A stretch of 64,000 bases of DNA. Origin: Chloroflexota bacterium. Lineage in GTDB: Bacteria; Chloroflexota; UBA11872. The translations under genes were made by a program, and so were the position numbers. Under the pieces are notes generated by a model. It saw nothing but the letters and a program-made list of their open reading frames with translations, was not told the origin of the DNA and did not search any database. Of this stretch, positions 37,335 through 38,516 are shown piece by piece; position 1 is the stretch's first letter, and the number at the start of each line of letters is the position of its first letter. Location: contig JAJEGF010000030.1 in assembly GCA_022820025.1 (NCBI GenBank), positions 1-64,000 of the forward strand. The letters run 5' to 3'.

Positions 37335-37409
37335 ATGGATCGAGGGAGAGTTGACACGCAGCGCCAAGGCTATGCTGGGTACGTCGCCTGCCGGAGGACG
37401 CGCTGACCG

Positions 37410-38012
37410 GTGAATGGGAAGAACGCCCCCACGCTCGCGCTGCGCATCCTGGCCCTGGCATTGGTCGTTGGCTTGGTTCCGCTTGCGGCTGCCTGCGGCG
37501 AGGGTGAGGGCGGCGGAGCGAGCGTGCGGGATCCCGAGGTCAGCGGCGCCAACTTGGCCGCCTTTCAGCAGCCAGTCCCGGATAACGCGGCCGGCCAGCC
37601 GGCGCCGGAGGTGCGCGGTACGTCGTTTGACGGGGCGGCCGTGTCGATCACCAACGACGGGCGAACCAAGGCGCTGGTCTTCCTGGCGCACTGGTGACCG
37701 CACTGCCAAGCCGAGGTGCCTGTCGTACAGGCCCTTGTGGACGCCGGGGGCGTACCAGACAACATCGATATCTACGCGATCGCGACGGCCATTGATTCGG
37801 GGCGGGCCAACTACCCGCCGGAGGCCTGGCTGGAACGTGAGGGCTGGACCTCACCGGTCATCGTGGACACCCGCGACGAGGTCGCCCACGCCTATGGGCT
37901 GGGAGGCTTTCCGTTCTGGGTGTTCGTGAACTCCGACGGCACCACCGCGCTGCGCGTGGGCGGGCGGATCTCGGCCGACGAGTTGACCGTAATTCTCCAG
38001 CACTTGCAGTAG
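37410..38012 (+). CDS. Thioredoxin-like lipoprotein with in-frame TGA, probable selenoprotein (U-P-H-C active site)
   Basis: A 200-codon TlpA-like protein. The signal peptide ends at the lipobox LAAAC (about residue 29), and the TlpA fold starts at GQPAPEVRGTSFDG. At the active site, where relatives have W-C-x-x-C, the reading frame shows codons for H-W, then TGA (37695-37697), then P-H-C-Q-A-E-V-P. The frame is open on both sides: 95 codons before and 105 after, ending GGFPFWVFVNSDG (cis-Pro) and a short helix. Translation as Sec gives W-U-P-H-C. A hairpin just downstream has bacterial SECIS features. The alternative is a nonsense mutation of a Cys codon. It would act as a membrane-anchored outside thiol-disulfide or selenenylsulfide reductant. 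Confidence 0.8.
37715..37734 (+). promoter_or_regulatory. Candidate bacterial SECIS hairpin
   Basis: After the TGA at 37695-37697 the sequence folds as GG (37715-37716), bulged T (37717), GCCTG (37718-37722), loop TCGTA (37723-37727), CAGGC (37728-37732), CC (37733-37734). The loop centre lies about 28 bases after the TGA. Known bacterial SECIS elements have a short apical loop containing G and a bulged U in the upper stem, 16-37 bases downstream of UGA, and SelB binds there. Every part of that description is met except a strict GU order, which is present as G-U at 37725-37726. Confidence 0.65.
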
Positions 38013-38108: not shown

Positions 38109-38516
38109 ATGGTGTTGCGAGTCGTGGCGGGCTACCAGATTCTGATGGCGTCGGCGGTCGGTATCCACTTCATCATCACGAGCCTCTACCACCCCGGAGG
38201 CGATGAGCCGTTCACCGCGTGGCACGTCATGAACTGGTTCATGGTCGTCAGCGTGGTCATCGCGCTCGGGCTGAGCTTCCGGCGCAAGCGCACGTTGGAC
38301 AACGATCCCCACTGGCGGGACTACCTGGAAACCAACCTCACCTTCTACGGCGCCATTCTGTTGGCGCTCTGGTTCTTCTGGAACTGGTTCGGCGTTTTCA
38401 GCGGCCAGGACAGCGGCACGTTCTGGGGATTCATCAACCCCCTATTCGTTCTGGTGGTGGGCTCCCTGGGGTGCCGCATGTGGAGCCGCCTGGCGGCACT
38501 GCGCCGTTCGTCCTGA
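38109..38516 (+). CDS. Small four-helix membrane protein (paralogue of 9077-9499)
   Basis: A 135-residue protein with four hydrophobic segments (VVAGYQILMASAVGIHFII, HVMNWFMVVSVVIALGLSF, FYGAILLALWFFWNWFGVF, FINPLFVLVVGSLGC). A charged loop with RRKRTLDNDPHWRDYLE lies after the second helix. The pattern NWFMV ... RR..D..YL..N..FYGAI..AL.F.W.W is shared with the product at 9077-9499. The family is not known to me. ATG 38109 has an RBS-like GAGGC upstream. It follows the selenoprotein candidate by 96 bases, so co-expression is possible. Confidence 0.65.
   Translation: MVLRVVAGYQILMASAVGIHFIITSLYHPGGDEPFTAWHVMNWFMVVSVVIALGLSFRRKRTLDNDPHWRDYLETNLTFYGAILLALWFFWNWFGVFSGQDSGTFWGFINPLFVLVVGSLGCRMWSRLAALRRSS

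Follow-up and report, generated by a model that had tools for sequence, protein, structure and literature searches.

UxxC redoxin-like selenoproteins are already known: the table of prokaryotic selenoproteins in PMC13188914 includes UxxC proteins with the redoxin domain (PF08534), with PF00578 and with cd02966, as well as a TlpA family of the UGC type (PMC13188914). The conversion between selenocysteine (Sec) and cysteine has been treated (PMC1794560), and, under the counting rule stated in PMC9312934, proteins that share a domain and a Sec motif form one subfamily, so that the AHWUPHC protein described here would not be a new one (PMC9312934). What is new is the linkage of its Cys relatives to dsbB and the likely history of DsbB loss. 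Neither the AHWUPHC family nor the pairing of dsbB with an AHWC[PS]HCQ gene was found described in the literature titles or abstracts searched, and the words Chloroflexota and Chloroflexi are absent from the main text of PMC13188914. Taken as a whole, the explanation that best fits our results, and in which we have high confidence, is that the gene encodes a selenoprotein, with its UGA read as Sec, that probably derives from a Cys-containing ancestor partnered with DsbB.

The in-frame TGA and its decoding

The gene lies on the + strand at 37410-38012 of the window, that is, of the whole stretch of 64,000 nucleotides analysed, which comes from a Chloroflexota metagenome-assembled genome (MAG; G000, 93.6% complete). 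The sequence reads from a GTG start at 37410 through a TGA at 37695-37697 (+ strand) to a TAG stop at 38010-38012, with 95 codons before the TGA and 104 after it free of any other stop, and would give a TlpA/ResA-fold lipoprotein of 200 residues with Sec at position 96. GGAGG at 37393-37397 (+ strand), 12 bases 5' of the GTG, was picked out by eye as a possible ribosome-binding site. Positions 1-774 of the window, on the same strand, hold an RNase P RNA (457-774) and, at 1-143, the end of a 16S rRNA gene. The local protein context, FLAHW-[TGA]-PHCQAEVP, puts the TGA at the first Cys of a W-C-x-x-C site, AHW-U-PHC, with the codon of the resolving Cys99 at 37704-37706 (+ strand). A preliminary description had noted this frame, open on both sides of the TGA, and had called the gene a probable selenoprotein; both points agree with our observations, the second being supported by the Sec machinery of the genome, by the pairing of TGA with Cys among relatives and by the selection acting after the TGA.

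The selA, selB, selC and selD genes, whose presence the preliminary description had proposed as a check, were all found in the source genome. SelB scored 347 bits against a cut-off of 242 and also carries the SelB wing domain (PF09107); because the TIGR00475 search matches many elongation factors as well (in 14/14 control genomes), only the match over the cut-off was used. SelA (510 bits) and SelD (372 bits) were likewise over their family cut-offs. The tRNA-Sec reached 71 bits against an Rfam cut-off of 47, but the same model passes its cut-off in five of the 14 control genomes and, in G000 itself, a second match just above it is a tRNA-Ser; for that reason the candidate was checked with ARAGORN, which names it SeC(tca). 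The SelD of this genome (L058, G000:C18:47507-48433) is itself a selenoprotein, with a TGA in GAG-U-ACK, a sequence that matches the UxxK motif given for selenophosphate synthetase among the entries of PMC13188914 (PMC13188914).

A frame that stays open after the TGA could also be produced by a reassigned code, in which the codon stands for another amino acid, or by unprogrammed read-through. However, TGA behaves as an ordinary stop in this DNA, where it ends 15 of the 39 long ORFs of the window (ORFs picked by a GC3 rule), it occurs only where the aligned relatives have Cys, and tRNA-Sec, SelA, SelB and SelD are all encoded, which together render these readings highly improbable. The sequence data indicate that the apparent stop codon is very probably read as selenocysteine: SelB with Sec-tRNA would read the UGA at 37695, aided by a hairpin just downstream, and would place selenocysteine at the nucleophile position of the UPHC site.

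A hairpin is present where the preliminary description had placed it, in a candidate SECIS region at 37710-37737 (+ strand) that allows two alternative structures. The first, GG-U-GCCUG-UCGUA-CAGGC-CC, spans 37715-37734 and has a bulged U at 37717 and a five-base loop with G and U (37723-37727); in the minimum free energy fold the bulged-U hairpin extends over 37712-37737 and its loop closes to CGU (37724-37726). Its helix pairs in 89.6% of the cells among seven distinct Sec sequences, being partly broken in three of them, and its covariation is no better than that of shuffles, 211 of 500 of which reach the observed score. The second hairpin (37710-37732), with a five-base loop at 37720-37724 and an invariant GU at 37722-37723, pairs in all seven distinct Sec sequences, which vary too little there for a covariation test. 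No relevant match to a SECIS was obtained in an Rfam search. In eight of the 11 Sec genes, which are near-copies of each other, the stretch from +14 to +47 is more stable than 195 or more of 200 synonymous-codon shuffles, while in the other three (L022, L025 and L028) 28, 31 and 38 of the 200 shuffles were as low. Six of eight Cys genes were unremarkable in the same test, and the remaining two, L034 and L035, gave values as low as those of Sec genes (8 and 3 of 200). The hairpin right after the Cys codon in L034 and L035 could be due to chance, or be a remnant or forerunner of a SECIS. When only hairpins with GU in the loop were considered, the window beat 60 of 60 shuffles and the other Sec genes had 0-6 of 60 as low, with fairly good values in three of the eight Cys genes (L031 with 4, L034 and L035 with 9 of 60). 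It is plausible that the hairpin acts as a SECIS. With regard to the SECIS mentioned in the preliminary description, the structure is consistent with one, although the covariation analysis gives no proof of it.

Selenocysteine and cysteine among the relatives

Across 61 genomes searched, TGA occupies the Sec96 codon in 11 of the 13 belonging to the genus, including one, G011, whose gene is truncated by the end of its contig; the remaining two are G001, with Cys at this codon, and G002 (76% complete), which lacks an orthologue. Cys orthologues were found in the neighbouring genera as well, in five of six g2 genomes and in both g4 genomes. An alignment of homologues, the other check put forward by the preliminary description, comprises 19 genes, in which this codon is TGA in 11, TGC in five and TGT in three, and Cys99 is invariant in all 19 proteins. 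Protein identity to the window, measured across the TGA, is 84-95% for the 10 other Sec rows, one of them partial. In a stop-tolerant phylum search of 400 genomes sampled from a larger group, 21 of which had a match at E <=1e-25, Sec forms were confined to this genus. A scan of named genomes gave the same picture in its best 80 of 435 confirmed loci, with 10 TGA and 70 TGC or TGT; these 10 TGA loci, all in MAGs titled Chloroflexi or Chloroflexota, are the same organisms as ten of the 11 Sec genomes and hence no second sample, and Sec forms are under-sampled by the scan, since one of its two patterns requires HWC. Bin names of the Sec-bearing MAGs include RHO, COS, SB and jk18x. From seven sponge species, Rhopaloeides and Coscinoderma included, 242 Chloroflexota MAGs have been reported in a study whose text does not contain the short names COS and RHO (PMC8163846); judging by the bin names alone, the Sec-bearing bins may come from such sponges.

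The same TGA codon has been kept in 11 genomes whose mean pairwise synonymous difference in this stretch is 0.30-0.39, and is therefore not there by chance; a chance open frame was ruled out by this conservation together with purifying selection. Among the Sec genes, uncorrected pN/pS amounts to 0.022 for the 69 bases that precede the TGA and 0.047 for the 48 that follow it, and reaches 0.116 in each of the two stretches beyond, low values that indicate that the downstream half is translated and selected. These results bear directly on the alternative raised in the preliminary description, a pseudogene in which a Cys codon has mutated to a stop and the downstream half is decaying. Although a single-base change suffices to turn TGC or TGT into TGA, and Cys is likely ancestral, the presence of the same TGA in 11 genomes, with a downstream pN/pS of 0.05-0.12 and with neither frameshift nor further stop in any of them, contradicts such decay and makes a pseudogene scarcely credible. 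In known selenoprotein genes, decoding of the UGA competes with termination, and it could be supposed that the truncated product of 95 residues is also functional, the full-length protein being made only when selenium is plentiful. That product, however, would be devoid of Cys99 and of most of the fold, and selection is strong downstream of the TGA; we consider a functional truncated form very unlikely, and continue with the full-length selenoprotein.

In a tree of 81 rows and 140 columns, all 11 Sec rows fall into a single clade (support 100/99) among Cys rows, which suggests that Cys is likely the ancestral state at this codon. The other members of the 18-row set (99/98) that contains the Sec clade are the four Cys lipoproteins of the g2 type and three Cys proteins linked to dsbB; the branching order within this set is weakly supported (89/43). 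One genome of the genus, G010, carries a Cys copy (L074, G010:C24:24426-24989) in addition to its TGA copy. The former is likely a stray contig, since it lies inside the sister-genus clade and G010 is listed as 8% contaminated.

Linkage of the Cys relatives to DsbB and its probable loss

In 59 of the 70 Cys loci, dsbB is located directly upstream on the same strand; in two more (L108 and L114) it lies farther upstream by about 800 bases, three loci end too early for a judgement, and six (L071-L074, L089 and L130) do not have it. The pair formed by dsbB and an AHWC[PS]HCQ gene occurs in these 59 loci (among L075-L140) in Acidimicrobiia, Actinomarinales, Chloroflexota and others, and the partner of DsbB in it has a domain of the TlpA/ResA type, not a DsbA domain. 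Nine of the 59 neighbours were used to build the DsbB-neighbour profile and match it by construction; all nine independently match Pfam DsbB. Upstream of the Sec gene, dsbB was found in none of the nine loci with a readable upstream region, the tenth (L070) being cut. Searches with Pfam DsbB (24 genomes) and with the DsbB-neighbour profile (27 genomes) did not find DsbB in any of the 11 Sec genomes, nor in the g2 genomes examined, two with the former and four with the latter. The genomes in which it was found are G025, G027 and, adjacent to the Cys gene, G001, G020 and G023. As the Sec genomes are MAGs, dsbB could have been missed in one of them, but hardly in 11. For VKOR, the usual substitute of DsbB, a search of the 11 Sec genomes and of two g2 genomes gave no match.

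A gene for a small predicted membrane protein with no Pfam match (38109-38516, + strand) follows just 3' of the Sec gene. It is found just downstream in all 10 named Sec loci and also after the Cys gene of the g2-type loci L071-L074, and a GFO/IDH/MocA gene comes next in the same loci, further off in L069 and L070. Given these shared downstream genes, the Sec and g2-type Cys forms are taken to represent a single gene in a conserved position. For the small membrane protein, the best match in G013 lies about 31 kb away from the gene.

A CPHC site together with a DsbB partner suggests an oxidase as the ancestral form. The ancestor would have been a CPHC thiol oxidase, anchored in the membrane, with its DsbB encoded alongside; dsbB would then have been lost, the protein would have become a lipoprotein and Cys would have changed to Sec in most of the genus. 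We regard as likely this history of a DsbB-partnered CPHC oxidase, DsbB loss, lipoprotein and Sec, in which the order of events is our inference. The sister genus without DsbB keeps Cys, so the loss of DsbB alone does not explain Sec.

In the thioredoxin fold the first residue of the motif is the nucleophile. By this chemistry, Sec96 would attack a partner, presumably a disulfide or a thiol, and would form a mixed selenenylsulfide that Cys99 would resolve. Which way the electrons flow is suggested by the rest of the genome, where the gene of a CcdA-like protein (DsbD_TM, 37 bits against a cut-off of 27) immediately follows an ORF of 467 residues that contains an FGCINC site and that we would call DipZ-like. 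Elsewhere, G000 encodes a polytopic protein that has no Pfam match, next to two TlpA-like proteins with CPPC. Since the turnover of an oxidase without DsbB or VKOR has no known recharger, and a CcdA-like protein is present, we lean slightly, from context alone, toward a reductase or isomerase over an oxidase recharged by small oxidants; the CcdA-type protein would then be the electron source of the Sec lipoprotein.

It is possible, though improbable, that the protein is still a DsbA-like thiol oxidase that Sec enables to be recharged without DsbB, by small oxidants or by another partner. The title of a PDB entry for a ResA variant (3c71) describes CPHC as a DsbA-like motif, the Cys family is linked to dsbB, and no dsbB was found in the genomes that use Sec; on the other hand, the sister genus shows by keeping Cys that Sec is unneeded for life without DsbB, and a CcdA-like reductase partner is present in the genome. 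We are more doubtful still about a stronger proposal, that Sec rescued a DsbA-type CPHC oxidase orphaned by the loss of DsbB and made of it a self-sufficient extracytoplasmic selenoenzyme, whose selenenylsulfide would be recharged or discharged by small molecules or another partner. The protein offers a clean replacement of Cys by Sec: Cys versions occur in sister genera and in a single genome of this genus, and the loss of DsbB, with which the family usually exchanges electrons, can be seen in the same lineage. It is thereby a natural experiment on the reasons for which bacteria recruit selenium in extracytoplasmic redox proteins.

Fold, anchoring and comparison with known families

Both Redoxin (PF08534) and AhpC-TSA (PF00578) were over their cut-offs in a Pfam scan of the window protein, and a sequence profile search returned thioredoxin-family lipoproteins, StoA and ResA as matches. 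The AlphaFold model, made from a 19-row alignment with Sec modelled as Cys, has a mean pLDDT of 79, and its closest structure in the PDB by Foldseek is ResA (1st9; E 2.1e-9, TM 0.83 by target length). The term TlpA-like, used in the preliminary description, is thus appropriate for the fold but probably not for the ancestral role, the closest Cys family being linked to DsbB and having a CPHC site. No NCBIfam model reached its cut-off with the window protein: the ResA, StoA, DsbE and TlpA subfamilies all remained below, the best being StoA (43 bits against 210), with 39 against 170 for ResA and 27 against 300 for WAxxUGC_long (NF041054). Annotation that stops at the TGA would be expected to truncate or overlook the gene.

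The predicted signal peptide extends over 37410-37496 (+ strand), up to the lipobox Cys29 (codon 37494-37496), the lipobox of the window having been read by eye. By a regular expression combined with a hydrophobicity rule, a lipobox was found in all nine Sec loci with a readable N-terminus, in 4/4 g2-type (sister-genus) loci and in only 3/59 dsbB-linked loci. All 59 dsbB-linked proteins have a hydrophobic N-terminal segment, which we take as a transmembrane anchor. The Sec protein would be exported and anchored by lipid outside the membrane through Cys29, as far as its sequence allows us to infer.

Eleven other TlpA-like matches that bear a TGA were considered as orthologues and rejected, their motifs being WASWUxC in ten and WATWUGWC in one (L166). 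The ten WASWUxC genes (L162-L165 and L167-L172) are TlpA-like with a long C-terminal region, and two of them are from the genus (L165 in G002 and L171 in G005). Five were scanned, and each had NF041054 as its best NCBIfam model, at 126-161 bits, under the cut-off of 300; these scores relate them to that family without placing them in it. L166 (G042:C1:16700-18400), from the same phylum, has an N-terminal hydrophobic segment and ResA as its best model (97 of 170 bits), and looks like a separate UxxC selenoprotein.

With the TlpA/ResA/StoA oxidoreductases (PF08534/PF00578; NF002854, NF041202), the window protein shares the fold, the extracytoplasmic anchoring and the place of WCxxC, but it has Sec for the first Cys and PHC in the motif, and scores far under the NCBIfam cut-offs. 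The UGC-containing TlpA selenoproteins (NF041054) have a TlpA-like fold and Sec at the same turn, although their motif is U-x-C and not UPHC. The DsbA-like selenoprotein (PF01323), going by its published entry, has UxxC in a protein of the DsbA type, whereas the window protein belongs to another domain family and PF01323 is absent from its Pfam matches. The Redoxin family selenoprotein (PF08534, UxxC) and the thiol-disulfide isomerase-like selenoprotein (cd02966, UxxC), compared here by their listed description only, have the same broad domain and Sec position (PMC13188914). The DsbB-linked AHWC[PS]HCQ proteins of Acidimicrobiia, Actinomarinales and Chloroflexota are of the same family, with 38-65% identity and a motif that is near-identical apart from Sec, and differ from the selenoprotein in having Cys, in the dsbB gene that mostly adjoins them and in being for the most part without a lipobox.
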